A stretch of DNA of 64,000 nt from Pseudonocardia sp. C8 (GTDB lineage Bacteria > Actinomycetota > Actinomycetes > Mycobacteriales > Pseudonocardiaceae), in contig NZ_JACMTR010000002.1 in the NCBI RefSeq assembly GCF_014267175.1, positions 5,109,501 to 5,173,500 of the forward strand, given 5' to 3'. This document shows positions 31,391 through 46,574 of this stretch, one piece after another. Made by a program: the position numbers and the translations under genes. Each line of letters begins with the position of its first letter. The stretch's first letter is position 1. The notes beneath the pieces are model-generated. The model was not told where the DNA came from. It searched no databases and worked only from the letters and a program-made list of their open reading frames with translations.

Positions 31391-31861
31391 TCACATGTTG
31401 TCGGCGCCGGCCTTGATCGCCTCGCGGATCCGGTTGTAGGTGCCGCACCGGCAGATGTTGCGGATCTCGTCGAGGGCGTCGTCGTCGATCGACCGGCCCT
31501 CCTCGGCGCACCGCTTCACCAGCGCCACCGCGGCCATGATCTGGCCGGGCTGGCAGTAGCCGCACTGGGCGACGTCGTTGTCGATCCAGGCCTTCTGCAT
31601 CGGGTGCAGCTCGTCGCCGTCGGCGAGCCCCTCGATCGTGGTCACCTCGTCCGACTCGGAGAGCGCACCGACCGGCACCGAGCACGGGTTGAACGCCTTG
31701 CCGTTGATGTGCGACGTGCAGGCCTTGCAGACGTTGATCCCGCACCCGTACTTGGGGCCCTTGACCCCCAGCAGGTCACGCAGGACCCAGAGCAGCCGGA
31801 CGTCGTCCTCGACGTCGACGGAGACGAGCTCGCCGTTGACCTTGAACGTGTGTGTCGACAT
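31391..31861 (-). CDS. 2Fe-2S subunit of molybdenum hydroxylase (IorA/CoxS-like)
   Basis: A 156-residue electron-transfer subunit with two [2Fe-2S] clusters: plant-ferredoxin-like cluster Cys in YGCGINVCKACT and NPC, and the helical cluster in QCGYCQPGQ and CRCGTYNR. It passes electrons from the molybdopterin subunit encoded just upstream. ATG 31861 has GAAGGAG upstream. There is a 14-base gap to the large subunit. No FAD subunit is encoded, as in isoquinoline 1-oxidoreductase-type two-subunit enzymes, so the electron acceptor is probably a cytochrome or quinone pathway. Confidence 0.92.
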   Translation of the reverse strand: MSTHTFKVNGELVSVDVEDDVRLLWVLRDLLGVKGPKYGCGINVCKACTSHINGKAFNPCSVPVGALSESDEVTTIEGLADGDELHPMQKAWIDNDVAQCGYCQPGQIMAAVALVKRCAEEGRSIDDDALDEIRNICRCGTYNRIREAIKAGADNM

Positions 31862-31875
31862 GGACGGTCTCCTTC

Positions 31876-34200
31876 TCAGCGGGCGTAGTCGAGGCCGTTG
31901 GTCGGCGACGGCGGGACCGGCGGCACCGTCGGGTACGGCTCGAACGGGAGCGGCTCCTTGTGCAGGATCGGGAAGTACTCCGGCACCGTCCCGGTGGCAC
32001 GGGCGTAGGCGTTGGCCACCGCGCCGCAGGTCGGCGCGACGCCGAGCTCCCCGACGCCGCCGGGCTCCGGCCGCCCGTTGTCGACGATGAAGATCTGCAT
32101 GTCGAGCGGGGTGTTCCACTGCCGGGTGTAGAAGTAGTTGTCCCAGCTGGCCTCGATGAAGTGACCGTCCTCCAGGTGCAGGCCGGAGGTCAGCGTCATG
32201 GCGATACCGTCGTTGATCCCGCCCATGAGCTGGGCCCGGTACCCGAGCGGGTTGATGATCAGGCCGCCGTCACTGGCGAAGACCACCTTCGTGACGCGCG
32301 GGCCGGTGCGGGCCGAGCGGACCTCGCGGTTGACCGTCTCCGGCCGGCAGTCGATCTCGACCAGGCACGCGGCGTAGCTCTTGTACTCGACGTGGAAGCC
32401 GAGGCCCTGGGCGGTGCCCTCCTCCATGGAGCGGCCCCAGTTCCCCTCCTCCGCGACCTTGTCCAGCACCGCGCGCATGGCGTCGTTGCGCAGGAACTCG
32501 CGGCGGAACTCGTAGGAGTCCTTGCCCATCTTCGCCGCGATCTGGTCGACGATCAGGTCGCGCGCGGTGCACACGTCCGGCGAGTACACGTTGCGCATCG
32601 AGCAGGTGTTGAACCGCAGGTCGACCTCGGTGAGCGTCCGGGTCTGGGCCCCGAAGTCGTAGGGCGTGTTCTGGGTGAGCTCCCAGATCGCCTCGGAGAC
32701 CCCGACCTGGCCGAGCGGCGCCTTGGCCGCCGCCGCGGTGACCGCGTCGCCGAAGCCGTGCCCGAAGTCGGTGGTGACGCTCGTGTGCCGCTGCTCGAAG
32801 CTGACGACCGACTCGCCGCTCACGACGGCCCGGATCCGGGAGGTCGCCATCGGGTGCGTGCGGCCCTGCCGGGAGTCGTCGGCCCGGGTCCAGACCAGGC
32901 TCACCGGCTTGCCCATCTTCTGCGAGACCTCGGCGGCCTCCTTGGCCGCGTCGCCGAACAGCCGGCGCCCGAACGAGCCGCCGCCCTCCACGACGTGCAG
33001 GGTCACCGCGCTGACCGGCATGCCGAGCAGCTCGGCGATGTCGTGCTGGACGGTGATCGGGATCTTCAGGGCCGACCAGATCTCGGCGGAGTCCTCGCGG
33101 ACGTCGGCGATCGCGGCGTTCGTCTCCAGCGCGGAGTTGCTGCGGAAGTAGAACGCGAAGTCACCCTCGACGGTCTCGCCGGGCACGGACGGCACGGCCA
33201 GCGGCAGCTCGGCGGCGCGGACCTTCTCCAGCACGGACTCGTCGTTCTCGCCCTCGACGGTGCCGCCGTCCCACTGGACGCGCAGCGCGTTGACCCCGTC
33301 GATGGCCTGGCCGGTGGTCTTGGCCCGGACCGCGACGCCGGTGCTCACCATCTCCACGTCGGTGACGCCCGGCATGTTGCGGACCTCGTCGGCGTTCTCG
33401 ACGCTCTGCGGCTCCGAGTTCAGGTACGGGCCCCGGCAGATCACGGTCGGCAGCGCGTCCGGGACCTGCATGTCGGCGAGGAACTCCTTCTTGCCGGTCA
33501 CGATCGCGCGGGCGTCCGCCTTGGTCCGCTCGGTGCCGATGACCGTGAACTCCTCGCGCGGCTTGAGCGCGACCTCGACCTGCTTGGTCACGTCGCTGGC
33601 CGCGGCCTCGGTGAGGTCGGAGAACGGGATCGCGCTGCCGCCGGCTCCGGTGATCAGCCCGGAGCGGCTGGTGAGAGTGTCGACGTCCTGCCCGAGCATG
33701 TGGGCCGCGGCGTCGAGCAGCCGGCCCTTCGCGATGGCGGCGGCCACCCGGATCGGCGTGAACGTCGAGAACGTCGTGCTGGACCCGCCGGTGAGCTGGT
33801 TGAACACCAGCTCGGGGCGCGAGTCGGCCAGCGTGACGTGCACCTGGTCCGGGTCGAGGTCCATCTCCTCGGCGATGATCATCGCGGTGGAGGTGATGAT
33901 CCCCTGGCCGTTGTCCGAGCGGGGCAGCGCGAACGAGACCGTGCCGTCCCGGTTGACCTCGACCTTGATCAGGTTGGCGGTGGGCCGGGACGAGTCGCGG
34001 ATCGCGTCCAGCAGGTCGTAGACGTCCGCGGTCTGCGGCGGCGACGGGATCGCCGCCGCCGAGGCGTCCGGCGGGGCGAACAGCTGCTGGCGGCCGAGTT
34101 CGGCCGCGACCACCAGCGTGGGCGCGGCGACCAGGTATCCGAGGAAGCGGCGGCGGCTGACGTCGCGGCGCTTCTCGCGTGCACGTGTCGGGGCAGACAT
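31876..34200 (-). CDS. Tat-exported molybdopterin subunit of aldehyde/xanthine oxidase family (IorB-like)
   Basis: A 774-residue catalytic subunit. The N-terminus carries a twin-arginine signal (SRRRFLGYLVAAPTLVVAA), so enzyme and partner are probably exported folded. Cofactor-binding regions include GQGIITSTAMIIAEEM, GGGSFGRRLFGDAAKEA and the C-terminal GGVGELGVAPTCGAVANA with the catalytic Glu. Such enzymes hydroxylate aldehydes or N-heterocycles using water; the substrate is not evident. ATG 34200 has AGAGGACG upstream. First gene of the operon; three palindromes lie 190-255 bases upstream. Confidence 0.9.
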   Translation of the reverse strand: MSAPTRAREKRRDVSRRRFLGYLVAAPTLVVAAELGRQQLFAPPDASAAAIPSPPQTADVYDLLDAIRDSSRPTANLIKVEVNRDGTVSFALPRSDNGQGIITSTAMIIAEEMDLDPDQVHVTLADSRPELVFNQLTGGSSTTFSTFTPIRVAAAIAKGRLLDAAAHMLGQDVDTLTSRSGLITGAGGSAIPFSDLTEAAASDVTKQVEVALKPREEFTVIGTERTKADARAIVTGKKEFLADMQVPDALPTVICRGPYLNSEPQSVENADEVRNMPGVTDVEMVSTGVAVRAKTTGQAIDGVNALRVQWDGGTVEGENDESVLEKVRAAELPLAVPSVPGETVEGDFAFYFRSNSALETNAAIADVREDSAEIWSALKIPITVQHDIAELLGMPVSAVTLHVVEGGGSFGRRLFGDAAKEAAEVSQKMGKPVSLVWTRADDSRQGRTHPMATSRIRAVVSGESVVSFEQRHTSVTTDFGHGFGDAVTAAAAKAPLGQVGVSEAIWELTQNTPYDFGAQTRTLTEVDLRFNTCSMRNVYSPDVCTARDLIVDQIAAKMGKDSYEFRREFLRNDAMRAVLDKVAEEGNWGRSMEEGTAQGLGFHVEYKSYAACLVEIDCRPETVNREVRSARTGPRVTKVVFASDGGLIINPLGYRAQLMGGINDGIAMTLTSGLHLEDGHFIEASWDNYFYTRQWNTPLDMQIFIVDNGRPEPGGVGELGVAPTCGAVANAYARATGTVPEYFPILHKEPLPFEPYPTVPPVPPSPTNGLDYAR

Positions 34201-34390
34201 CGTCGTCCTCTCATCTCCTCCGGCGGCCCTGGTTCGGGGGAGCTGCCTGCCGGAGTCCGTCACGGGCAGAACGAAGCCCGGTGCGGCGGGATGCGGCGCC
34301 GGGACCGGCCCCGGCGAGGGCGCCGGTTCCGCACCGCGGACGGTGAGATGAGGGAGAACTGCAGGTCGGAGCAGCTGAGGTGAGGCACAC
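34201..34390. other. intergenic region upstream of molybdenum hydroxylase genes
   Basis: Non-coding stretch between the hydroxylase operon and the operator-like palindromes further upstream. I see no gene in it. It should hold the promoter of the hydroxylase operon but no clear -10/-35 pair is recognised. Confidence 0.5.
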
Positions 34391-34453
34391 TTCATCCGCA
34401 GATGCGGATGAATCCCGTCACGTTAATCCGTATTAACACGTTGTCCCGACAAC
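34391..34453. promoter_or_regulatory. three consecutive palindromes (candidate operator cluster)
   Basis: Within 63 AT-enriched bases: TTCATCCGCA-GA-TGCGGATGAA (34391-34412), GTTAAT-CCGT-ATTAAC (34422-34437) and GTTGTC-CC-GACAAC (34440-34453). All are perfect but unrelated in sequence. They lie between the end of etfA and the divergent-facing upstream region of the molybdenum hydroxylase operon, so they could be regulator sites for that operon; the first could also act as an etfA terminator. Confidence 0.5.
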
Positions 34454-34513: not shown

Positions 34514-35503
34514 TCACGTCTCGGAGCGCGCGCTCACCCCCGCCGGCGGGGCGTGGCCGGAGCCGCGCACGCGCGCCCGCAGGGCGTCGACCAGCGCCGG
34601 GAGGACCTCGTGGAGGTCCCCGACGACCGCGTAGGTCGAGCGCGTGACCATCGGCGCCTCCGGATCGGTGTTGATCGCGAGGATGGTCCGGGCGTTCATG
34701 CAGCCGACCCAGTGCTGGGTCGCGCCGCTGATGCCGCACGCGATGTAGAGGTCCGGGGCGATCCGGGTGCCGGTCAGCCCGACCTGGTCCCGGTGCGGGC
34801 GCCACCCGTTGTTGGTCGCCACCCGGGAACAGCCCACCGCGCCACCGAGGAGGTCGGCGAGCTCCTCCAGCACGGCGTACCCCTCGGCGCTGCCCACCCC
34901 GCGCCCACCGGAGACGACGACCGGGGCGGTGGCCAGCGAGACGCCCTCGGCCCGCGGGACTCGCTCGACCACCCGGGTGCGGGCCAGTGCCGGGTCCAGC
35001 TCGGGGGTGAAGTCGACGATCTCCGGTGTCCCGGTGGCGGCAGGCGTCTCCGCTCCGGCGGCCGCGCCCGGTGCGACGGTCGCGAACGCGACCGGCGCGC
35101 TCAGCTCGGCGTCCTCGAGCAGGACCCCGCCGCTGCGCAGGCGGGTCAGCGACCACGGATCACCGGGCCGCAGCGCCACGCAGCGCGTGGCCAGCGGCAC
35201 CCCGGCCCGCGCCGCGGCCTGGGCCAGGACCTCGTCGCCCCGCTCGGTCGCCGCGGCCAGGAGCCCCGCGGGGCCGGCCCGGGTCACGAGCTGGGCCAGG
35301 CTCTCCCCGTACGCCTCGGGGGCGTAGCCACTCAGCAGGTCGTGCCGGATCCGGTGGACGCACTCGGCGGGCAGCCCGTCCGGCACGGTCCCGATCACGA
35401 CGGCGTGCACCGGCAGCCCGGTGCCGTGGGCCACCGCGAGCAGGTCATCGGTGCCCGGACCGGGCACGCCGTCCTCGTCGGTGTCGATCAGTACGAGCAG
35501 CAT
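34514..35503 (-). CDS. etfA: electron transfer flavoprotein alpha subunit
   Basis: A 329-residue ETF alpha subunit. The C-terminal FAD domain is clear: VVSGGRGVGSAEGYAVLEEL (in part), GCSRVATNNGW, QVGLTGTRIAPDLYIACGISG (in part) and AINTDPEAPM. With EtfB it takes electrons from the flavoprotein dehydrogenase encoded next to it and passes them to the respiratory chain. ATG 35503 overlaps the etfB stop as TGATG. It is the last gene of the C1 operon. The N-terminal half is Ala/Gly-rich and less conserved. Confidence 0.93.
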   Translation of the reverse strand: MLLVLIDTDEDGVPGPGTDDLLAVAHGTGLPVHAVVIGTVPDGLPAECVHRIRHDLLSGYAPEAYGESLAQLVTRAGPAGLLAAATERGDEVLAQAAARAGVPLATRCVALRPGDPWSLTRLRSGGVLLEDAELSAPVAFATVAPGAAAGAETPAATGTPEIVDFTPELDPALARTRVVERVPRAEGVSLATAPVVVSGGRGVGSAEGYAVLEELADLLGGAVGCSRVATNNGWRPHRDQVGLTGTRIAPDLYIACGISGATQHWVGCMNARTILAINTDPEAPMVTRSTYAVVGDLHEVLPALVDALRARVRGSGHAPPAGVSARSET

Positions 35504-36309
35504 CAGAGCACCCCGAGCTCGGTCAGCTTCTCCACCACTGCGGGCACGGCCGCGGCCCCGGTGCCGAGCACGACGGTCTCCGGCCGGTCCTCGCGGGGGC
35601 ACCGCAGCCCCACCGTGCGCAGCCCGCCGGGCTCCGTCCGGCCCGGGACGGTGCGCAGCTCCGCCTTCCGGGCCCGCATCCTGCCCTTGATCGTCGGGTA
35701 GCGCGGGAGGTTGATCCCCTCCTTCACCCCGACGGCCGCCGGTAGCGGCACCCGGTACACCTCGTTGCCACCGGGGGTCTCGCGGTGCAGCACGACTCCC
35801 TCACCGTCGATCTCCATGCCCTTGATCCCGGTGACCATCGGCAGCCCGAGCGCGCGCGCCACCCGGATCCCGGCCTGCGCGTTCCCGGCGACGGCCGAGT
35901 CGGTGCCGAACAGCAGCAGGTCGTAGCGGGTGCCCCCGTCGGCCGCCGCCCGCACGGCCGCCGTGATCGACGCCGCGGTCGGCTCCGGGGCCAGCTCCTC
36001 GGTGGGCACCTCGACGAGCACCCCGTCGTCGGCGCCCATGGCGAGCGTGTACCGGAGCTGCTCGGCGGCGTCCGGCGGCCCGACGGTCAGGACGGTGACC
36101 CGCGCGGTGCCGCCGCCGGCCCGGTGCTCCTCGGCGATCCGGACGGCGGCCTCGACCGCGCACTCCTCGTGCGGCCCGACGGTGAACCCGAGGTGGCGGG
36201 TGTCGATCGCCATCCGGTCCTCGGTGAGCGTGATCCGCGCGCCGACCGCCGGGGTGCGCTTGACGCACACCAGCACGTCGCGCCGGGCCGGGTCGTCGGC
36301 CGTGCTCAT
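35503..36309 (-). CDS. etfB: electron transfer flavoprotein beta subunit
   Basis: A 268-residue ETF beta subunit with the N-terminal VLVCVKRTPAVGARI, the AMP-binding region LLFGTDSAVAGNAQAG and the recognition-loop equivalent VPLPAAVGVKEGINLPRYPT (in part). It forms a heterodimer with EtfA and docks with the DMGDH-type dehydrogenase. The start is one base after the stop of that gene, and it overlaps etfA, so the three are co-translated. Confidence 0.93.
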   Translation of the reverse strand: MSTADDPARRDVLVCVKRTPAVGARITLTEDRMAIDTRHLGFTVGPHEECAVEAAVRIAEEHRAGGGTARVTVLTVGPPDAAEQLRYTLAMGADDGVLVEVPTEELAPEPTAASITAAVRAAADGGTRYDLLLFGTDSAVAGNAQAGIRVARALGLPMVTGIKGMEIDGEGVVLHRETPGGNEVYRVPLPAAVGVKEGINLPRYPTIKGRMRARKAELRTVPGRTEPGGLRTVGLRCPREDRPETVVLGTGAAAVPAVVEKLTELGVL

Positions 36310-36310
36310 G

Positions 36311-38827
36311 TCAGCCCCGCATCCGGCTGTCGTCCGGGTCGAACAGCGGGGTCCGCCCGACCCGGGCGACGGTCACCGGATGGTCGTGGTTCATGTAGCG
36401 CACGGCCAGCCGGGTCCCCTCGACGGCGCGTTCCCGCGGCAGGTACGCCATCAGCAGGTGCCGGCCCAGCGAGGGGGCCGCGCCCGCGGTCGTCACCACG
36501 GACGGGCGGCCCATCCGGTCGACGAGCCGGTCGCCCTCGAGGGTCACGACGGGTTCGCCGCCCTGCGGGACGCGTCGCGTGCCGTCCGCGCCGGTGTGGT
36601 CGTCGACGGTGAGGGTGCACAGGATCGCGGCGGGGGCCTGCTCGCGGGCCCGCAGGTAGGCCTGTCTGCCGATGAAGTCGTGTGCCTTGACCCGCGGCAG
36701 CGCCAGCCCGGCCTCCACCGGGTCGTGCTCGGAGTCCAGCTCCGCGCCCATCAGGCGGTAGCCCTTCTCCAGCCGCCCGGTCGTGCCGTAGACGCCGATC
36801 CCGGCGGCGACGACGCCGAGCGGCTCCCCGGCCGCCCACAGCACGTCCCACAGCCTGCGGCCCTGCTCGAACGGGGCGTGCAGCTCCCAGCCCAGGTCAC
36901 CGACGTAGGACACGCGCAGGGCCAGTACCGGGACGCCGTCGATCGTGATCCACTTCGCCCGGCCGAAGGGGAACCCGCCCGCCGAGACGTCGTCCGGCGT
37001 GACGGCCGCGAGCAGGTCACGGGCCCGCGGGCCCCAGACGCCGACCGTGCACACCCCGGAGGTGATCTCGGTCAGGCTCGCCGCGCCGTCGGTGGGCAGG
37101 TGGGCGGTGAACCAGGCCAGGTCGCGCGGCCCGTCGGCCGCCCCGGTGATGACCCGGAACCGGTCGCGGCCGAGCCGCACCACCGTGAGGTCGGAGCGGA
37201 AGCCGCCGTTCGGCGCCAGCACCGGGGTGTAGATCATCCGGCCGTCCGGCCTGTCGACGTCGGCCACCGTCAGGCCCTGCAGGTACCGGCACGCCCCGGG
37301 GCCGGTGACCTCGAACTGGGTGAACGCGGACAGGTCGATCATCGCCACCCGCTCGCGCATGGCCAGGTGCTCGGCGTCGATGATCGGGGACCACCACCGG
37401 GCGTCCCACTCGTGCGGCCGCTCGGAGATCCGGCCCGCGAACTCGGCGAGCAGCGGCCGGTTGGCCTCGTACCACTGTGGCCGTTCCCACCCGCCGACCT
37501 CGAAGAACTCCGCACCGAGCGCGGCCTCGGCTGCGTGGAACGGCGACAGCCTGCGGTCCCGGTCCGCGCTCCACTGCTCGCGCGGGTGCACGATCCCGTA
37601 GGTCTTGTTGAACCCCTCGGACGTGCGCGCCCGGACGTGCGTGGCCGCGCGCTGGTGCGGGCCGAACCGGGCGATGTCGGCGGCGTGCAGGTCGATCCCG
37701 GGGACGCCGTCGGTCATCCACTCGGCGAGCCTGCGGCCCACACCGGGCCCCTCCTTGATCCAGACCGCGGCGGCCGACCACAGCCCGCCCACCTCGGGCA
37801 CCGGGCCGAGCACCGGGGCGCCGTCCGGGGTCAGCGAGAGCAGCCCGTTGATCGCGTGCCGGATCCCGGCGTCCGGCCGGGAGAGGATCTCCGGGAACGC
37901 CGCCAGCGCCTGCTCCAGCTGCGGGTCGAAGTCCGCCTCGGTGAACGGCAGCTGGGTCGGCGACAGGGCGGCGGCCGCGAGCGAGGGGATCTCGTCGGGC
38001 TCGTGCAGGATCGGCCGGTGGGCGTAGGAGCCGATCTCCAGGTCGGCCCCGGACTGGCGCTCGTACATCAGCGCGTCCATGTCCCGCACGATCGGGTAGG
38101 CGATCTCGCAGCCGGTGGCTTCCAGCTCCGGGATCGGCCCGACGTCGATCATCTGGTGCACCGCGGGGGTGAGCGGGATGCGGGCCCCGGCCATCGCCGC
38201 GATCCGCGGGCTCCACACCCCGCAGGCGACGACGACGGTGCCGGTCTCGATGTCGCCGCCGTCGGTGCGCACCCGGACGACCTGCCCGCCCTCGGTGTCG
38301 ATGCCCAGGACCTCGGTGTTCGCCCGGACCGTGAGCGCGCCGAGCTCCTGGGCGCGCTCCCGCATCAGTGCCCCGGTGCGCAGCGGGTCCACCACGGCGA
38401 CCGACGGCGTGAAGAACCCGAGCAGCACGGTGGAGGTGTCGAGGAACGGCATGCGCTTCGCGATCTCGTCCGGCCCGATCAGCTCGGCCGGGATGCCCCA
38501 CGCCGTGGCCGAGGACATGCGGCGGTGCAGCTCCTCCACCCGCTCGGGGGTGCGTGCGAGCTCGATGCCGCCGCAGGTGGTGAGCGTGCCGAACTTCTCG
38601 TACTGCCGCATCGAGTCCAGGGTCAGCGCGGTGATCTCCTGCGAGTGGTCGACCGGGAACACGAAGTTCGACGCGTGCCCGGTGGAGCCGCCGGGATCGG
38701 GCAGCGGCCCCTTGTCCAGCAGCACGATGCCCCGCCGCCCGCGTTCGGCGAGGTGGTGGGCCAGCGAGTTGCCGACGATGCCGGCGCCGATCACCACGAC
38801 GTCGGCCCGTTCCGGTGGTGTGGTCAT
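36311..38827 (-). CDS. dimethylglycine/sarcosine dehydrogenase-type flavoprotein with GcvT domain
   Basis: An 838-residue fusion: FAD-dependent DAO domain (1-380, GAGIVG at 14-19), an FAO-type connecting domain, and a C-terminal tetrahydrofolate-binding GcvT region (from about 430, YLQGLTVADVD, GYRLMGAELDSEHDPVEAGL). His51 in STGHASNF is at the position that carries covalent FAD in dimethylglycine dehydrogenase. The enzyme should oxidise an N-methyl group and hand the methylene to THF, with electrons leaving via the neighbouring ETF. ATG 38827 has AGGAGGACG. Dimethylglycine, sarcosine or a related amine is the likely substrate; exact specificity is not readable. Confidence 0.88.
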   Translation of the reverse strand: MTTPPERADVVVIGAGIVGNSLAHHLAERGRRGIVLLDKGPLPDPGGSTGHASNFVFPVDHSQEITALTLDSMRQYEKFGTLTTCGGIELARTPERVEELHRRMSSATAWGIPAELIGPDEIAKRMPFLDTSTVLLGFFTPSVAVVDPLRTGALMRERAQELGALTVRANTEVLGIDTEGGQVVRVRTDGGDIETGTVVVACGVWSPRIAAMAGARIPLTPAVHQMIDVGPIPELEATGCEIAYPIVRDMDALMYERQSGADLEIGSYAHRPILHEPDEIPSLAAAALSPTQLPFTEADFDPQLEQALAAFPEILSRPDAGIRHAINGLLSLTPDGAPVLGPVPEVGGLWSAAAVWIKEGPGVGRRLAEWMTDGVPGIDLHAADIARFGPHQRAATHVRARTSEGFNKTYGIVHPREQWSADRDRRLSPFHAAEAALGAEFFEVGGWERPQWYEANRPLLAEFAGRISERPHEWDARWWSPIIDAEHLAMRERVAMIDLSAFTQFEVTGPGACRYLQGLTVADVDRPDGRMIYTPVLAPNGGFRSDLTVVRLGRDRFRVITGAADGPRDLAWFTAHLPTDGAASLTEITSGVCTVGVWGPRARDLLAAVTPDDVSAGGFPFGRAKWITIDGVPVLALRVSYVGDLGWELHAPFEQGRRLWDVLWAAGEPLGVVAAGIGVYGTTGRLEKGYRLMGAELDSEHDPVEAGLALPRVKAHDFIGRQAYLRAREQAPAAILCTLTVDDHTGADGTRRVPQGGEPVVTLEGDRLVDRMGRPSVVTTAGAAPSLGRHLLMAYLPRERAVEGTRLAVRYMNHDHPVTVARVGRTPLFDPDDSRMRG

Positions 38828-38850
38828 GACGTCCTCCTAGGACGGTCCGG

Positions 38851-40545
38851 TTAGGACAGCCCGACGATCTCGCCGTCGTCGTCGATGTCGATGCGCTCCA
38901 CGGCGGGCGACGACGACAGCCCCGGCATGGTGCGCATGTCGCCGCAGATCAGGTAGACGAACCCGGCGCCCGCCGAGAGCCGGACCTCGCGGACCGGCAG
39001 CCGCCAGCCGGTGGGCGCCCCCGGCCGGGAGGGGTCGGCGGTGAGCGACAGGTGGGTCTTCGCGATGCACACCGGGAGCCGGCCGAACCCGTTGCGCTCG
39101 CAGGACTCCAGCTGGCGGCGCGCGAGCGGGGTGGGGTCGACGCCGTCGGCGCCGTACATCCGGCGGGCCACCGTGTCGACCTTGTCCAGCAACGGCAGGT
39201 CGTCGTCGTAGAGCATGCGGAAGCCGTCCGCGCGCTCGGTGCAGGCGTCCTCGACCGCCCCCGCCAGGTCGGCGGCCCCGATACCGCCCTTCGCGACGTG
39301 GTGGGTCACCGCGGCGCGGGCGCCCTCCTCCGCCGCGACCTGCATGATCGCGCGGCGCTCGCTGTCGAAGTCGGACGGGAACGCGTTCACCGCGACCACG
39401 GGCGGCACGCCGTGCGCGCGGACGTTCGCGATCTGGCGGCGCAGGTTCGCGGCCCCCTCGAGCACGTGGTCCGGGTTCTCGCGGAGCATCTCCTCGGGCA
39501 GCGGGCGCCCGGCGACGACCCGGTACCGGCCGGAGTGTGCCTTGAGCGCCCGCACCGTGGCGACGACGACGGCGGCGTCCGGCACCAGGCCGGACGCCCG
39601 GCACTTGATGTTGAAGAAGCGCTCGGCACCCATGTCGGCGCCGAACCCGGCCTCGGTGACCAGGTAGTCGCCGCTCCGGATGCCGATCAGGTCCGCCACC
39701 ACCGACGAGTTGCCGTGCGCGATGTTGCCGAACGGTCCGCAGTGGACGAATGCGGGTGTGTGCTCCGCCGTCTGCATGAGGTTCGGCTTGATCGCCTCGC
39801 GCAGCAGCACGCACATCGCGCCCGCCGCCTTCAGCTGCTCGGCGGTGACCGGGTCACCGCCGCGGTCGGTGCCAACGACGATCCGGCCGAGCCGCGCGCG
39901 CAGGTCCGGCAGCGAGTCGCACAGCGCGAGCACCGCCATCACCTCGCTGGCGGCCGTGATGTCGAAGCCGGTCTCGCGCGGGTTGCCGTCGTCCCGGCCG
40001 CCGAGGCCGGTCACGACGTGGCGCAGGTTCCGGTCGCAGACGTCGAGCACCCGGCGCCAGCTGATCGACCAGGGGTCCAGGCCGGAGGCGTTGCCGCGGT
40101 GCAGGTGGTTGTCCAGCACGGCGGCCAGCAGATTGTGCGCGGCGGTGACGGCGTGCAGGTCCCCGGTGAGGTGCAGGTTGACCGTCTCCATCGGGACCAC
40201 CTGCGAGTAGCCCCCGCCGGCGGCGCCGCCCTTGATCCCGAACGTGGGTCCCATCGACGGCTGCCGGATCGCGATCACCCCGCGCCGGCCGAGGTGCCGG
40301 AACGCCTGGCCGAGCCCGATCGTCGTCGTGGTCTTGCCCTCGCCGAGCGGGGTCGGCGTGATCGCGCTGACCACGACGTAGCGGCCCCGCGGCCGGTCGG
40401 CCAGCTCGGAGGCGGCGTCGAGGGAGACCTTGGCGACCGAGTTCCCGTACGGCTCCAGGTGGCGCGGGTCGATCCCCGCCTCGGCCGCGATCTCCGGCAG
40501 CGGCCGCGGTGCGACGCTGCGGGAGATCTCGATGTCGGTCGGCAT
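38851..40545 (-). CDS. fhs: formate-tetrahydrofolate ligase
   Basis: A 564-residue FTHFS with the P-loop TPTPLGEGKTTT (63-74), GGAAGGGYSQVVPME and EAGFGADMGAERF regions. It interconverts formyl-THF and formate with ATP. In this operon it most likely runs towards formate and ATP, disposing of C1 units from demethylation, as proposed for aromatic O-demethylation clusters elsewhere. Full length. ATG 40545 has AAGGGGGT upstream. It lies between the MetF-like and DMGDH-like genes, all on one strand; no folD is present, so that step must be encoded elsewhere. Confidence 0.95.
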   Translation of the reverse strand: MPTDIEISRSVAPRPLPEIAAEAGIDPRHLEPYGNSVAKVSLDAASELADRPRGRYVVVSAITPTPLGEGKTTTTIGLGQAFRHLGRRGVIAIRQPSMGPTFGIKGGAAGGGYSQVVPMETVNLHLTGDLHAVTAAHNLLAAVLDNHLHRGNASGLDPWSISWRRVLDVCDRNLRHVVTGLGGRDDGNPRETGFDITAASEVMAVLALCDSLPDLRARLGRIVVGTDRGGDPVTAEQLKAAGAMCVLLREAIKPNLMQTAEHTPAFVHCGPFGNIAHGNSSVVADLIGIRSGDYLVTEAGFGADMGAERFFNIKCRASGLVPDAAVVVATVRALKAHSGRYRVVAGRPLPEEMLRENPDHVLEGAANLRRQIANVRAHGVPPVVAVNAFPSDFDSERRAIMQVAAEEGARAAVTHHVAKGGIGAADLAGAVEDACTERADGFRMLYDDDLPLLDKVDTVARRMYGADGVDPTPLARRQLESCERNGFGRLPVCIAKTHLSLTADPSRPGAPTGWRLPVREVRLSAGAGFVYLICGDMRTMPGLSSSPAVERIDIDDDGEIVGLS

Positions 40546-40578
40546 GACCCACCCCCTTGTGGTGCTCGCGACCGCGGA

Positions 40579-41430
40579 TCACGCGGCGACGCGACGGTGC
40601 GCCAGCTGCAACCAGCGCAGCGTGGCCTCGACCTGGTTGAACGTGTAGACGTGCAGGCCGTCGAGCTCGCACCGGCCCGCCGCGACGTGCGCGCCGAGCC
40701 GGCGCACCAGCCCGTCCGGCCGGTAGCCGTTCGGCCGCAACAGCTTTCCCGCCAGCGACCGGTGCCCGCGGAGGAAGCGGGCCGAGGACCCCACCCCGAT
40801 CCGCAGGCTCACCCGGAGCAGCCGGCCGGCGTCGACGGCGCCGGGGATGCCGGCCACGACCGGCAGGGTGACCCCCCGTTCCCGGGCCCGGGCGGCGAAC
40901 GTGCACACGGTGTCGGCGTCGAAGCAGAGCTGGGTGACCGTGTAGGTGGCGTGCTCCTGCTTCTCGCGCAACAGCTGCCACAGGGTGTCGCCGGGCAGCC
41001 CGCGCAGCCCCTCCGGGTACGACGGCACGCCGACCGAGGTCATCGGGTGCCCGAGCTCGGCCATGGCGCGCAGCAGCGACAGCCCGTCCGGGAACTCCCC
41101 CGCCGGCTCCGGGGCGTCCCCCGCCACCACGAACACGTCCCGCACGCCGGCCCGGTCCAGCCGGTCGAGCACCCCTGCGAGCTGGGCACGGCCGGTGAAC
41201 TGGCGGGCCGCGAGGTGCGGGACCGCGCGGAACCCCCTGCCGGACAACGCCTCGGTCAGCTCGACGGTGGCGTCGACCCCCTGCCGGGGCGACGCCGTGA
41301 CCGTCACCGTCGCGCCGGCCGGCAGCGCGGCGGTCGCGTCGAGCGCCCCGCGCAGCGGGAGCAGCTCGAAGCGGGGCCGGGCGAGCAGCCGCGCCGTGGC
41401 GCGGCGGCTGCCCGGTGTCGATCCCCCCAT
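40579..41430 (-). CDS. methylenetetrahydrofolate reductase (MetF)-like
   Basis: A 283-residue TIM-barrel protein of the MetF family: VTVTASPRQGVDATVELTEAL (in part) near the N-terminus, FVVAGDAPEP, the FAD/substrate block TVTQLCFDADTV and the LPVVAGIPGAV region, ending with HVYTFNQVEATLRWL. In biosynthesis MetF reduces methylene-THF; in a demethylation operon it would oxidise methyl-THF back to methylene-THF. The ATG is five bases after the stop of the methyltransferase gene. It is rather diverged from housekeeping MetF, consistent with a dedicated copy. Confidence 0.85.
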   Translation of the reverse strand: MGGSTPGSRRATARLLARPRFELLPLRGALDATAALPAGATVTVTASPRQGVDATVELTEALSGRGFRAVPHLAARQFTGRAQLAGVLDRLDRAGVRDVFVVAGDAPEPAGEFPDGLSLLRAMAELGHPMTSVGVPSYPEGLRGLPGDTLWQLLREKQEHATYTVTQLCFDADTVCTFAARARERGVTLPVVAGIPGAVDAGRLLRVSLRIGVGSSARFLRGHRSLAGKLLRPNGYRPDGLVRRLGAHVAAGRCELDGLHVYTFNQVEATLRWLQLAHRRVAA

Positions 41431-41435
41431 GCCAC

Positions 41436-42644
41436 TCAGCCCTTCGGGGTCGCCTTGGTGGGGTCCACGAACGGCTTCGGCACGACGACGGCCCGCCGCA
41501 CGCCCTGCGGCGTCACCACCTTCAGCTCGGTGCCGATCCCGGTGAGCGGCACCGGCAGCATCGCCAGCCCGATGTTCCGGTCCAGCCGCGGCGACCAGCA
41601 CGCGCTCGTCACCCGGCCCACCTCGACGCCGTCCGACTCGACCGCGAACGGCTCGATCATCGACCCGTCGTTGAAGGAACCGAGCCGCGGACCGTCCATC
41701 TCGACGCCGGCGATCTGGCGGCTCACGCCCTCGCTCCGGATCCGGGCCAGGGCCTGCTTGCCGACGAAGTCGGCCTCTTGGTCCAGGTCGACCATCCAGT
41801 GGTAGTCGTAGCCGACCTCGAGCGGGTTCGTGTCGAGGGTGATGTCGCAGCCGTAGGCCAGCATCCCGCCCTCGATCCGCCGGATGTGGCAGGGACCGAT
41901 CGCCCGCATGCCGTGCGGTCGCCCGGCCTCCCAGATCCGGTCCCACAACGCACCCGCGTTGCGGGTCGCCTCGAACAGGTAGATCTCGTAACCGATCTCG
42001 GCGCTGTAGCCGGTGCGGCTGACCACCACGTCGATGCCGTCGAGGGTGTACCGGCGCATCCCGTAGTAGGGGATGTCCAGCACGTCGCTGCCGAACAGGT
42101 CGGTCATCACCGGTTTGGCGAGCGGTCCCTGGACCTGGACCGGGGCCACGTCGACCTCGCGGACCGTGACGTCCCAGCCGCCGGCGTGCGCCAGGCCCAT
42201 CGCCCACAGCCCGGCATCGCTGTCCGCAAGGGACAGCCAAAACCGGTTGTCCTCCAGGCGGAGCAGGACCGGGTCGTTGATGATGCCGCCGTCCGGCGCA
42301 GTCATGAACACGTACTTGCACTGCCCCACCGCACACCGGTGCAGGTCACGGGGGACGAGGTAGTTGGTGAAGTCGAACGCCTGCGGCCCCGAGATCTCGA
42401 GCTGCCGTTCGACGCCGACGTCCCACAGCGTGACCCCGGTCAGCAGCGCGTGGTACTCGCCGATCGGATCACCGTAGTGACGCGGGTGGTAGGTGTGGTT
42501 GTACACGCTGTACATCGCCACGCCGTGCTCACGCGACTTCCAGAAGTACGGCGACTTCCGCAACCGGCTGTAGAGCAGGATGCCGGGTGCGCCGACGACC
42601 GGGGTTTCTCGCGAGGACTGCTGTGGCTCAAGTACGTCCGTCAT
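41436..42644 (-). CDS. DmdA-like GcvT-family THF methyltransferase
   Basis: A 402-residue GcvT-fold protein. Several blocks resemble DMSP demethylase DmdA: YSVYNHTYHPRHY, VWDVxxER-type LWDVGVERQLEI, PRDL, GGIINDPVLLRL, LADSDAGLWAMGL, VSRTGYSAEIGYEIYL and SACWSPRL. It should move a methyl group from a quaternary N or S compound to THF, making 5-methyl-THF. Whether the donor is DMSP, glycine betaine or another compound is unknown. ATG 42644 is chosen over upstream in-frame codons because homology starts shortly after it and GGAG/GAGG lie upstream. First gene of the C1 operon. Confidence 0.8.
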   Translation of the reverse strand: MTDVLEPQQSSRETPVVGAPGILLYSRLRKSPYFWKSREHGVAMYSVYNHTYHPRHYGDPIGEYHALLTGVTLWDVGVERQLEISGPQAFDFTNYLVPRDLHRCAVGQCKYVFMTAPDGGIINDPVLLRLEDNRFWLSLADSDAGLWAMGLAHAGGWDVTVREVDVAPVQVQGPLAKPVMTDLFGSDVLDIPYYGMRRYTLDGIDVVVSRTGYSAEIGYEIYLFEATRNAGALWDRIWEAGRPHGMRAIGPCHIRRIEGGMLAYGCDITLDTNPLEVGYDYHWMVDLDQEADFVGKQALARIRSEGVSRQIAGVEMDGPRLGSFNDGSMIEPFAVESDGVEVGRVTSACWSPRLDRNIGLAMLPVPLTGIGTELKVVTPQGVRRAVVVPKPFVDPTKATPKG

Positions 42645-42889: not shown

Positions 42890-43744
42890 ATGGAAACGGC
42901 CACTGCGGAATCCACGGGTCTGCGACCACTGCTCGACCAGCTCCGGGAGGTCGTCCCGGTGAACGTCCTCGGGGCGGGCTGGGCGGCTCGGCCGACCGAG
43001 CCGGTCAGCCTGACGGAGTTCTCGGGCACGAGGACCGAATCCCTGAGCGGGCTCCGGATCGATCGGGGGCGCGGGATCGGGGGGCGTGCGCTCGCGCTGC
43101 GCAAGCCCGTCAAGGTGCGGGACTACACCACGGCGTCGAACCTCCCTCGGGACTACACGCGCGCGGTGTCCGCCGAGGGCCTGCATGCGATGTACGCCCT
43201 GCCGATCAGCGTGCTCGACGGCCCGACCGGCCTGGTCTACGGCGCGTTCCGCACCGAGGTGGAGATCTCCGACCGGCTCGTGGCGGCGACCGCCGCCGTC
43301 GTGCGCAGGTTCGAGTTCGAGTGCTCGGTACACGTCGCCGCGCGGCGGCAGGTCGAGGAGCTCCGCGCACGTGCCGAACGGCTGACCTGCGGCCCGCGCG
43401 CCCCCGAGGCGGCCGCAGGCAGGCTGCGCGAGCTCTACGCCGACCTGCGTCACCTGTGCGCGACCGCGGACGACAGCCCCCTGCGGGACCGGCTGGAGGA
43501 TGTGCTGAACGACGTCGAACGCCGCTTCGGCTCGAGGTCGTCGCCGGTGCCGCGGCTCGCCCGCCGAGAGATCGACGTTCTGGCGCAGGTCGCGGCCGGG
43601 CACAGTGCCGCGCACGCCGCCGTCCGGCTGGGGCTGGCCCCGTCGACGGTGAAGGCCTACCTCCGTTCGGCCTACCGCAAGCTCGGCGTGCACAACCGTG
43701 TCCAGGCGGTCGCGGCGGCCCGCGCGCTCGACGTCGTGCTCTGA
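42890..43744 (+). CDS. GAF-domain LuxR-family transcriptional regulator
   Basis: A 284-residue regulator. The N-terminal 150 residues look like a GAF sensor (GIGGRALALRKPVKVRDY, then LPISVLDGPTGLVYGAF), followed by a helical linker and a C-terminal LuxR-type helix-turn-helix (LARREIDVLAQVAAGHSAAHAAVRLGLAPSTVKAYLRSAYRKLGV, quoted in parts). There is no response-regulator receiver domain, so it probably binds a small ligand. ATG 42890 is preferred; GTG 42887 is adjacent. It is divergent to the C1 operon and precedes the Tat/GMC pair, so it could control either or both. Confidence 0.82.
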   Translation: METATAESTGLRPLLDQLREVVPVNVLGAGWAARPTEPVSLTEFSGTRTESLSGLRIDRGRGIGGRALALRKPVKVRDYTTASNLPRDYTRAVSAEGLHAMYALPISVLDGPTGLVYGAFRTEVEISDRLVAATAAVVRRFEFECSVHVAARRQVEELRARAERLTCGPRAPEAAAGRLRELYADLRHLCATADDSPLRDRLEDVLNDVERRFGSRSSPVPRLARREIDVLAQVAAGHSAAHAAVRLGLAPSTVKAYLRSAYRKLGVHNRVQAVAAARALDVVL

Positions 43745-43890
43745 CCGACACCTCCTTTCGGACGGTCAGCCCCCCGAGCGGTCCTACCGTCCCGGGCACC
43801 GGCCGCATCTGTGGCGCGTGGTGGCGATTCGCCCCGACCGGCGTGGCCTTCCCGGCCGCCGGCCCACCGTTCGAGAGGAACCGAATCGAC

Positions 43891-44790
43891 GTGCAGGACA
43901 AGGTAGTCGGCCGCCGGGCCTTTCTCGCCCGTCTGGGCGTGCTCGGTGCGGTGGTGGCGACCGGCGGGCTGTTCGCCGACCGTGCCGTCGCCGCCGTCGG
44001 GCTCGAGCCGGACGGCTCGGCGCTCGACCAGATCGTCGAGGACCTGCAGCCGGTCCTCGCCGAGCTCGCCCGGGACACGCTGAACGGCCTGGTCGTGATG
44101 GTCTGCCCGGGCCCGGACGAGTACTCGCGGGCACAGGGCACGCCGCGCCCCGAGGACGGCGCGCTCGAGGCCCGCGCGACGGATTTCATGATCGCTTCGC
44201 TGGACGGCTTCGTCCCGTTCCCGGACCAGCTCGGCACCGCGCTGGCCGGGGGCCTGGCAAGCGGCCTGGAAGGAACAGGCATCACGTTGCCACCGGCGCA
44301 GGCCGCCCTGCCGATCGGTCAGGTCGGCACGGTGGACCGGGCCCTCACCACGTTGTTGCGCAACGACGCGACGCTGCCCTTGTCGGCGGTGGTCGCGATG
44401 CTGCTGAACCTGGTGGCCACCCAGGTCGACCCGGCCGCGGTGCACGGCCCGTTCCTCTCGCCGTTCGCCCGCCTGTCCTACGCGGGCAAGTGCGCCGTGT
44501 TCGAGCGGCTCGAGGGGCCGGACCCCGCCCTCGTGTCCGTCCTGGACTCGAAGGCGCCGGAGCCGTTCACCGGGACGCTCTCCGGAATGCTCCGGTTCCT
44601 CGCCGGCGCGCTGCTGGAGTTCGCGGCCTACGGCAGCTACGGCGAGTGGGGCGTGTTCGACCCCGACCAGAAGACGCTCTCCGAGCAGCCGGTCGGGTGG
44701 CGCCTGACCGGGTACCAGCCCGACGGCGTCGTTCAGGGATGGGACGAAATGATCGGCTACTACCAGGACCGGGAGCGGGTGAGCGCCTGA
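43891..44790 (+). CDS. Tat-exported partner subunit of GMC oxidoreductase
   Basis: A 299-residue protein with a twin-arginine signal (GRRAFLARLGVLGAVVATGG) at its N-terminus. The mature part has no motif I can name; conserved-looking phrases are FARLSYAGKCAVFERLEG and LLEFAAYGSYGEWGVFD. The gene overlaps the GMC oxidoreductase gene (TGATG), and a small Tat-signal subunit escorting a signal-less flavoprotein is known for gluconate 2-dehydrogenase-type enzymes; I infer the same here. GTG 43891 has GAGAGGAA upstream. A TACCGT at 43785-43790 may be the promoter -10. Confidence 0.65.
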   Translation: MQDKVVGRRAFLARLGVLGAVVATGGLFADRAVAAVGLEPDGSALDQIVEDLQPVLAELARDTLNGLVVMVCPGPDEYSRAQGTPRPEDGALEARATDFMIASLDGFVPFPDQLGTALAGGLASGLEGTGITLPPAQAALPIGQVGTVDRALTTLLRNDATLPLSAVVAMLLNLVATQVDPAAVHGPFLSPFARLSYAGKCAVFERLEGPDPALVSVLDSKAPEPFTGTLSGMLRFLAGALLEFAAYGSYGEWGVFDPDQKTLSEQPVGWRLTGYQPDGVVQGWDEMIGYYQDRERVSA

Positions 44791-46574
44791 TGCGCGACGT
44801 CATCGTGGTGGGCGCCGGCGGTGGGGGCGCCGTGGTCGCCAAGGAGCTCGCCGCCCGCGGCCTGGACGTGCTGCTCCTGGAGGCAGGCCCGCGGCACGCC
44901 GACATCACCGAGGAGTGGACGCACTACGAGAACGACGCGAACAACCCGCTGACCGGGTTCCTGCGGTTCGGGCCCTCCGACCGGTCGCAGCCGGCCTGGT
45001 ACCGCGAACTTCCGCAGAACTCGTTCCTGTGGCAGCTCTCCGGCGTCGGTGGCACCACCCAGCACTACTTCGGCAACTGCCCGCGGGCCTATCCCGGTGT
45101 GTTCGCCGGCTACGACGGTGCCGACCGCGACGCCTACGACACCGCCCACCTGTTCCCGTTCGGCTACTCCGAGCTGGTGCCCTACTACGAGTGGGTCGAG
45201 GCGACGCTGCCCGTGCAGACCGCCGCGATGGGGCGCAAGGAGGAGGTGTTCTTCCGCGGCTGCGAGCAGCTCGGACTGCCGGTGCAGACCGCGAAGACCA
45301 CCACCGAGGACTCCTACCGACCGCAGGAGAACGCGATCCTGCAGCCCGGGGGCGCCGCTGGCCGGGTGTCCGGCTACGAGGGTGAGCCGCGGCTGCTCTA
45401 CCCGGAGGCGACCGGGTGCACGTTCTGCGGATACTGCTTCCAGGGGTGCTCGCACCCGGCGAAGGCGCCGCGCAACCTGATCGCGAAACGGTCCACCGAC
45501 AACAGCTACGTGCCGATGGCGCTGACCGCGGACCGGTGGGCACCGGGCGGCCGGCCGGTCACCCTGGTCACCGACGCGTTCGTCACCCGGGTGCACACCG
45601 AGCAGCGCGGTGGCCGGACGGCGGCGAGCGGGGTGACCTGGCGGGAGGGCGCCACGGGCGATCACCAGCGCGAGGACGCCAAGGTCGTCGTGCTCGCCGC
45701 CGGCTGCACGGAGAACCCCCGGCTGTGGTTCAACAGCGGGCTGCCCGACCCCAACGACTGGGTCGGTCGCGGCTACACCGACCACTACTTCGACTGGATC
45801 ATCGCGAGCTTCGACTCCTACACCGGCTCCAGCAAGGGCACCGGTTCCTCGGCACGGTCGGACTGGCCCGGGCGCGGCGGCGTGATGAACGTGGGCCTCC
45901 CGCCGGCGTTGAAGGCCTTCACGATGACCTTCTCGGACAGCGGGATCCGCGGGCAGTACGGGAACGGCCGGGGCGAGGCCGGCCCCTGGGACGGCCCGGC
46001 CGGTCGGCTGATGGGACCGGAGCTGAAGGACATGATGATGGGCGGCATCGACCAGATGTTCTGCATGCTGGTGATGACCGACGACGACGTGGAGCGGCAG
46101 AACCGGGTCACGCTCTCCGCGCTACCGGCCGACGAGCACGGCTCGGTGGCCAAGGTGGAGATGCACCAGCGGCAGCGGTCCCGGCGCACCGTGGCCAATC
46201 GCGAGTTCCTGGTCCGCAAGGGTGTGGAGATCGCGCGGGCGGCCGGGGCGCGCACGGTGCACCGGATGGACTGGCCCCCGCTGATCCTGCACGTCCAGTC
46301 CACCATGCGGATGGGCGAGTCGGAACGGAACTCGGTACTCGACGCCGACGGCCAGGCCCGCTGGGTCGACGGGCTCTACGTCGCGGACAACTCCGCGCTG
46401 GCCAACTCGGCCGCCGGTGTCAACCCGACCCTGACCACGCAGGCGGTGGCGACCCGGACCGCCGAGAAGATCTTCACCAGCCGGTTCGGCGGGGCCGCGT
46501 GGGTGCGCTCCGAGGCCCCGGTCGTCTCCACCGACGACCGGGTCGCCCAGGGCATGGACGACCTCGGCCTCTAG
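44790..46574 (+). CDS. GMC-family FAD oxidoreductase with Cys cluster motif
   Basis: A 594-residue flavoprotein: FAD site VGAGGGGAVVAKELAARG (5-25), GMC signature region SGVGGTTQHYFGNCPRAYP (in part) and C-terminal active-site His/Asn in HVQSTMRMG and GVNPTLTTQAVATRTA. A Cys-rich segment GCTFCGYCFQGCSHP (about residue 210) could bind an iron-sulfur cluster as in some sugar dehydrogenases of this family. No signal peptide; export with the Tat-signal partner encoded upstream is likely. It oxidises an alcohol or sugar; substrate unknown. The ATG overlaps the partner's stop. Confidence 0.85.
   Translation: MRDVIVVGAGGGGAVVAKELAARGLDVLLLEAGPRHADITEEWTHYENDANNPLTGFLRFGPSDRSQPAWYRELPQNSFLWQLSGVGGTTQHYFGNCPRAYPGVFAGYDGADRDAYDTAHLFPFGYSELVPYYEWVEATLPVQTAAMGRKEEVFFRGCEQLGLPVQTAKTTTEDSYRPQENAILQPGGAAGRVSGYEGEPRLLYPEATGCTFCGYCFQGCSHPAKAPRNLIAKRSTDNSYVPMALTADRWAPGGRPVTLVTDAFVTRVHTEQRGGRTAASGVTWREGATGDHQREDAKVVVLAAGCTENPRLWFNSGLPDPNDWVGRGYTDHYFDWIIASFDSYTGSSKGTGSSARSDWPGRGGVMNVGLPPALKAFTMTFSDSGIRGQYGNGRGEAGPWDGPAGRLMGPELKDMMMGGIDQMFCMLVMTDDDVERQNRVTLSALPADEHGSVAKVEMHQRQRSRRTVANREFLVRKGVEIARAAGARTVHRMDWPPLILHVQSTMRMGESERNSVLDADGQARWVDGLYVADNSALANSAAGVNPTLTTQAVATRTAEKIFTSRFGGAAWVRSEAPVVSTDDRVAQGMDDLGL

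Follow-up and report, generated by a model that had tools for sequence, protein, structure and literature searches.

The stretch of DNA analyzed here, 64,000 nucleotides of Pseudonocardia sp. C8 (the window; C2:5109501-5173500 of a 6.24-Mb genome designated G000), contains six minus-strand genes that run from position 42644 down to 34514 in the order DmdA-MetF-Fhs-DMGO-EtfB-EtfA. The first (41436..42644) encodes a 402-aa protein of the DmdA superfamily, with GCV_T (144.1 bits) and GCV_T_C domains, which we propose to be a betaine:tetrahydrofolate (THF) methyltransferase. It is followed by a divergent MetF-like gene (40579..41430; weak MTHFR match, 50.9 bits; top match in the PDB, 7xg9, 8.2e-25), by the gene of the formate-THF ligase Fhs (38851..40545; FTHFS, 804.7 bits; NCBIfam PRK13505, 777.6 bits, above the cut-off of 652), and by a gene (36311..38827) for an 838-aa flavoprotein with a THF domain, of the dimethylglycine oxidase/dimethylglycine dehydrogenase (DMGO/DMGDH) type. 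The last two genes encode the electron transfer flavoprotein subunits EtfB (35503..36309; ETF, 100.4 bits) and EtfA (34514..35503; ETF and ETF_alpha, 110.7 bits). The gaps measure 5, 33, 23, and 1 nt, the last one between the DMGO-like gene and etfB, and the ATG of etfA overlaps the etfB stop by 1 nt (TGATG). An earlier, sequence-only reading had described this as a complete operon of six same-strand genes with tiny gaps or overlaps. All six genes are present, and Pfam and NCBIfam agree with the names it gave them; "complete" is slightly too strong, since folD is not in the operon. As that reading expected, folD lies elsewhere: the rest of the genome yielded six FolD matches, five of them strong and one weak. 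A second and stronger MetF match (297 bits) also lies outside the operon, at G000:C2:1905457-1906302.

The best PDB match of the 402-aa protein was DmdA from P. ubique (3tfh, 3.3e-64), followed by GcvT (1woo, 2.3e-42) and, at a distance, LigM (7.5e-5). Its NCBIfam scores stayed below the cut-offs for DmdA (PRK12486; 323.7 versus 410 bits), GcvT (177.3 versus 300), LigM (41.9 versus 580), DesA (59.1 versus 800), and the trimethylamine N-oxide (TMAO) demethylase Tdm (194.8 versus 1100, for a model of 763 aa). In a tree of 80 rows, from which 27 near-copies or paralogues and all matches below 90 bits had been left out beforehand, the protein fell on a DmdA side of 66 rows (support, 100/100), separate from GcvT, DMGO, TMAO demethylase, and L005, a paralogue from the same genome. 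It thus did not group with ordinary GcvT, the outcome that the sequence-only reading had named as fatal to its proposal. Within the DmdA side, the actinobacterial rows lay outside the group of true DmdA (Pelagibacter, Phaeobacter, Marinovum, and Antarctobacter); long branches and a deviating composition of four rows, Pelagibacter DmdA among them, make the deep order of this tree less certain than the separation from GcvT. W136 and S138 are common to the 402-aa protein and true DmdA and are not found in GcvT, DMGO, TMAO demethylase, or L005. D141 and D143 are likewise shared with DmdA, except that the first also occurs in L005 and its kin L096 and the second in one DMGO row. These comparisons place the 402-aa protein in the DmdA superfamily but outside the true demethylases of dimethylsulfoniopropionate (DMSP).

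The nearest named relatives of the 402-aa protein are from P. nantongensis (87%), P. parietis (86%), and P. ammonioxydans (85%), and relatives that bear a name are annotated as glycine cleavage proteins or aminomethyltransferases. According to the available part of PMC7487153, the DMSP-contact tryptophan of DmdA is W171, a residue whose placement in our alignment is uncertain. A tryptophan at P. ubique position 197 was considered as a DMSP marker and dropped because three of the four true DmdA rows carry Y there and only one W; Y also occupies this column in 34/34 rows of the main clade, that of the window. L005 (G000:C2:1186466-1187239) lies in a 903-aa open frame and groups with TMAO demethylase in the 80-row tree (100/99).

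We looked into the surroundings of the DmdA-like genes in other genomes. Among 45 main-clade loci, near-copies included, 36 have Fhs within 7 kb, 34 have a DMGO-type gene (at least 34% identity; in L032 a fragment only), and 32 have a MetF that could be detected, so the grouping of these genes is not due to chance. Etf genes were present somewhere in the locus in 14 cases, and a gene of the MttB superfamily (termed MTTB) in none. Counts were similar for the 40 loci flanked by 6 kb or more on each side (Fhs, 32; DMGO-type, 30; MetF, 29; Etf, 12; MTTB, 0). No DMGO-type gene was found within 7 kb in 11/45 loci, and MetF, Fhs, and DMGO were all missing within reach of four (L023, L024, L026, and L048). 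The operon occurs in eight families: Pseudonocardiaceae, Jiangellaceae, Glycomycetaceae, Micrococcaceae, Microbacteriaceae, Nocardioidaceae, Intrasporangiaceae, and, with the DMGO and DmdA-like genes only, Thermomicrobiaceae.

The flavoprotein has both the domains (DAO, FAO_M, GCV_T, and GCV_T_C) and the compared catalytic residues of DMGO/DMGDH proteins. Dimethylglycine oxidase 1pj5 is its best PDB match (1.2e-160), with the same domain plan and 39% identity, and H48, H225, Y259, W361, and D552 (1pj5 numbering), residues whose roles we take to be those known for 1pj5, are kept; another structure, 3gsi, differs from 1pj5 at D552. The co-encoded EtfBA suggests that the window enzyme is a dehydrogenase. 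A search of 149 genomes (that of the window included; six candidates scored per genome) returned a clear ortholog in 23 of them, at 62 to 100% identity (two fragments in G018, 57% and 66%; next best, 45%); we refer to these as subfamily II, or DMGO-II. All 23 genomes have a methyltransferase partner: a main-clade DmdA-like gene in 9, a DmdA-like gene of the 40% clade in 2, and MTTB in 12, and never both kinds together. Any such partner occurs in 39/149 genomes (MTTB at E 1e-80 in 17, main-clade DmdA-like genes in 15, and the 40% clade in 8, once as two fragments), which gives the 23/23 a nominal hypergeometric P of 6e-17, uncorrected for relatedness. GbcA-type Rieske genes were found in 12/23 DMGO-II genomes, near their overall rate (77/149 at E 1e-60); the distribution of DMGO-II therefore tracks that of the methyltransferases rather than that of the Rieske enzyme. 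The genome of the window has no MTTB match at E 1e-80.

In 12 of the other DMGO-II loci (L122-L131, L133, and L141), the first gene encodes an MttB-superfamily protein (PF06253, 606 bits) that replaces the DmdA-like gene. After it come a DMGO-like gene, etfB, etfA, and, in most of the loci, MetF-like and Fhs genes, together with an IclR regulator. These operons also carry an MtgC-like corrinoid protein (best NCBIfam model MtgC, 185.8 bits, below the cut-off of 370), a Pterin_bind (MtgA-like) protein (PRK07535, 281.8 bits, above the cut-off of 259), a RACo-type activator, and, on the opposite strand, a DUF1638 gene. The full corrinoid set and both Etf genes are found in 11 of the loci, L133 ending at its contig. 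In the PDB, the MttB-type protein matched 4yyc (414.5 bits), 2qne (381.3 bits), and 9yce, a "Glycine betaine methyltransferase" (379.1 bits), versus 121.2 bits for the trimethylamine methyltransferase 7xcl. We take 2qne and 9yce to be Desulfitobacterium MtgB, 4yyc to be a Sinorhizobium protein, and 7xcl to be a methyltransferase of the pyrrolysine kind. Sets of this kind, made of an MttB-superfamily protein, MtgC, MtgA, and RACo, are known to transfer betaine methyls to THF. The part of PMC12478193 available to us reports that MtgBCDE are co-located in S. meliloti and that MtgC and MtgD are essential for betaine demethylation in Ruegeria.

A 45-row DMGO tree (leaving out 21 near-copy or duplicate loci, matches shorter than 2150 bp and hence alignment-split genes, and matches with stops) resolved two subfamilies, one with 1pj5 and the GbcA-linked DMGO of the window's own genome, which is 65% identical to 1pj5, and the other, subfamily II, with the window protein. 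Subfamily II departs from 1pj5 at position 363 (T to K, or R in one row) and at position 335 (F to L). MTTB-linked and DmdA-linked rows occur in both subfamilies (by distance, the DmdA label also fell on a second DMGO, L037_1396). The MTTB label needs 4 changes on this tree and the well-supported branches force 4, with gains and losses indistinguishable. Two DmdA-linked rows, L085 and L088, are nested inside an MTTB-linked group (99/94 and 99/98). In L085, an IclR gene, a 63-aa MtgC-like remnant (67% identity), and the DmdA-like gene stand at the place of IclR-MtgC-MtgA-RACo in the MTTB operons; EtfB was undetected and EtfA only partial in this locus, and its genome has no MTTB match. In L088, the IclR gene (81%) adjoins the DmdA-like and MetF genes. 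The DmdA-like protein shares its gene partners with the corrinoid MtgB-MtgC-MtgA(-RACo) set, of which it would be a non-homologous functional counterpart.

We propose the following route. The DmdA-like enzyme would transfer a betaine methyl to THF, most likely converting glycine betaine into dimethylglycine, without O2 and without cobalamin. The MetF-like protein would oxidize methyl-THF to methylene-THF. The DMGO-type enzyme, to judge from its family and conserved residues, would remove the next methyl oxidatively onto THF and pass the electrons to EtfBA, and FolD (encoded elsewhere) and Fhs would convert the C1 unit into formate plus ATP. The sequence-only reading had drawn the same succession, from donor plus THF through MetF oxidation and a DMGO-type step feeding ETF to formate and ATP, and the conservation of the operon and the swap with the corrinoid module support it well. 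Overall, we consider it probable that the operon serves a corrinoid-free and O2-free demethylation of a quaternary betaine, most likely glycine betaine, that feeds DMGO. With somewhat less assurance, we favor the view that the DmdA superfamily includes a new clade of O2- and B12-independent glycine betaine:THF methyltransferases and that members of the superfamily have been swapped several times with the MtgB-MtgC-MtgA module beside conserved DMGOs.

The proposed system resembles several known ones. With DmdA (3tfh), the 402-aa protein has in common its superfamily, its length, the W-x-S-x-x-D-S-D region, and presumably the transfer of a methyl to THF; it differs in lying outside the DmdA group and below the DmdA cut-off, and in having DMGO, Etf, MetF, and Fhs as partners. 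No dmdBCD-like genes were found among the six genes of the operon, the rest of the genome not having been searched for them. The likeness to MtgB-MtgC-MtgA is one of operon partners (orthologous DMGO, Etf, mostly MetF and Fhs) and of the predicted net reaction of a betaine with THF, whereas the DmdA-like enzyme consists of one non-homologous protein and has neither corrinoid protein nor activase. The glycine betaine monooxygenase GbcAB would catalyze the same first step ahead of DMGO, but it is a Rieske oxygenase and yields formaldehyde. LigM/DesA with MetF and LigH also combine a GcvT-fold THF demethylase with MetF and a formate-THF ligase; they act on aromatic ethers, lack DMGO and Etf, and are distant in sequence.

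Several observations weigh against this interpretation. The window DMGO belongs to a distinct subfamily and may prefer another dimethylamino acid. Of the 149 genomes, 15 have a main-clade gene, and 12 of these, that of the window among them, carry a GbcA-type Rieske gene as well; in the genome of the window, the operon would therefore be superfluous for glycine betaine. Nor does the swap settle which substrate is used, because relatives of MttB act on several betaines (PMC8604678, as far as its available part goes). The correspondence between the two kinds of operon is also incomplete: MetF is found in 9 and Fhs in 8 of the 12 MTTB loci with DMGO-II (the L124 and L129 stretches contain neither of them, and L123 and L133 end at their contigs), and gene order differs between the two kinds of operon, with MetF-like proteins only 36% identical, so that the exchange concerns a module beside a shared DMGO rather than a single gene. 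L085 and L088 carry DmdA-like genes of the 40% clade and hence document the swap for the superfamily, not for the clade of the window, and in G065 the DmdA-like and DMGO-II genes lie on separate contigs. The lack of overlap between the 15 main-clade and the 17 MTTB genomes is not significant alone (P = 0.15), and we do not use it by itself; the genomes are related, so their counts are not independent. Finally, no consistent transporter accompanies the operon: in a survey of 152 neighboring proteins (sets of 64 and 88), BCCT was found for 1/88 and was not among the 25 families listed for the other 64.

The substrate question also involves the GbcA-type cluster of the same genome (L119, G000:C2:944500-964400; approximately 946 to 960 kb), which contains SoxA-type and DMGO-type flavoproteins, FolD, the GbcA-type Rieske gene, and a BCCT gene beside a urocanase gene. 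With its own DMGO, FolD, and BCCT, this cluster makes the window operon a second system. That cluster may itself act on another betaine: its Rieske protein scored 232.6 bits against an NCBIfam GbcA cut-off of 670, and the best PDB matches of a 65% relative in L011 were 3vca (which we take to be the stachydrine demethylase Stc2), 4qup, 3n0q, and carnitine monooxygenase. GbcA-type genes were present in 7/7 genomes tested for the 11 DmdA-like loci without a nearby DMGO and in 14/32 with one (Fisher p 0.0096, a post hoc comparison that mixes two search thresholds), an excess expected if dimethylglycine is the shared intermediate. In 25 other genomes with DmdA-like genes (27 loci queried), 16 had no GbcA-type match at E 1e-40, and MTTB occurred in 0/25; these counts, too, speak for glycine betaine.

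It is possible, though unlikely, that the chemistry is as proposed and the substrate is another betaine, such as proline betaine, carnitine, or gamma-butyrobetaine, with DMGO-II oxidizing the matching N-methyl or N,N-dimethyl product. The GbcA-type cluster already present, the position of subfamily II away from the 1pj5 side of the tree, and the several betaines used by MttB relatives would all fit. However, DmdA-like genes stand beside 1pj5-side DMGOs too (L089-L092, L037, and L045), and so do MTTB genes (L136-L139), which favors glycine betaine. The sequence-only reading had named glycine betaine, with DMSP as the alternative. We favor the former because of the DMGO-type partner, the MtgB-like module in the swap, and the operon's lack of dmdBCD-like genes, and we regard glycine betaine as the most likely, if unproven, substrate. 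A strict DMSP demethylase beside a flavoprotein with an unrelated function is improbable: the top NCBIfam and PDB relatives are indeed DmdA, and roseobacter relatives (47 to 51%) adjoin acyl-CoA synthetase and enoyl-CoA hydratase genes, but the DmdA cut-off was missed, true DmdA forms a separate group, and the swap beside DMGO points elsewhere. That the protein is a LigM/DesA-type aromatic O-demethylase accompanied by its customary MetF and Fhs appears very improbable. The available part of PMC9296663 describes metF and ligH as partners of DesA-type demethylation, which agrees with part of the operon; the LigM match is far behind that of DmdA, DMGO and Etf would have no role, and a swap with MttB-type enzymes would not be expected. 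We give least credence of all to an ordinary glycine cleavage or sarcosine-type aminomethyltransferase set, which the GCV_T domains would allow, as the tree separates the protein from GcvT and DMGO and another gene of the genome, at G000:C2:3684701, groups with GcvT.

For glycine betaine, the accessible part of PMC12478193 lists as first steps a Rieske oxygenase, betaine-homocysteine methyltransferase, and corrinoid systems. If our reading is correct, a further first step would stand beside GbcAB, betaine-homocysteine methyltransferase, and the Mtg systems, and these actinobacteria would be able to use an abundant osmolyte as a source of reducing power and ATP by a route whose first step is O2-free and B12-free. 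Genes now named glycine cleavage proteins or aminomethyltransferases would receive a function, and the swap would provide a natural test case in which a multiprotein cofactor system is replaced by a single enzyme. We found no report of a DmdA-type or GcvT-fold glycine betaine enzyme, or of such an operon, in open-licence papers, which is weak evidence. For SAR11, PMC3160333 (in the part available) notes a pair of aminomethyltransferases whose substrate is not known, one of which is encoded close to genes for betaine transporters.

DmdA-like genes also occur in other settings. On Roseobacter plasmids, genes 47 to 51% identical to the 402-aa protein lie in a unit Lrp - DmdA-like - OsmC - enoyl-CoA hydratase - acyl-CoA synthetase (L069:11322-16121, L070:11318-16049, L072:11317-16057, and L081:9317-14069), with no annotated acyl-CoA dehydrogenase; they likely act on a different methylated substrate. 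A Lichenihabitans plasmid (L071:10603-15170) groups MetF, DmdA-like, PurU, and FolD genes into a THF chain in which PurU substitutes for Fhs. In the Hyphomicrobiales loci L052 and L053, the DmdA-like gene lies beside a thiamine pyrophosphate enzyme, a MetF-like gene, and a PurU-type formyltransferase gene (domains scanned in L053, L052 assigned by similarity).

Upstream of the operon, a divergent plus-strand gene (42890..43744, start inferred) encodes a LuxR-type regulator of the RamA kind (NCBIfam RamA, 147.8 bits, below the cut-off of 500), and past it lies a GMC oxidoreductase gene (43698-46574, plus strand). Directly downstream of etfA, on the minus strand (31391-34395), are genes for a molybdopterin hydroxylase and for a protein that, by reading, resembles its 2Fe-2S subunit. 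We do not count the hydroxylase gene (31876-34395) as part of the operon, since in L009 and L010 the gene that comes after the Etf genes is on the opposite strand. Around the other operons, an IclR-type gene recurs (one cluster of 16 open reading frames, three of them scanned). The neighbor survey mentioned above covered 151 of 190 proteins within 4.5 kb plus one, several already recognized IclR genes being left out. Families were scattered; among those listed (25 of 86 for the set of 64 and 25 of 101 for the set of 88), Aldedh was found in 2/64, SHMT in 1/64, serine dehydratase alpha in 1/64 and 1/88, and IclR in 2/64 and 3/88. In P. eucalypti (L021:7158-9648), a cytochrome P450 gene and a family III CoA-transferase gene precede the DmdA-MetF pair.

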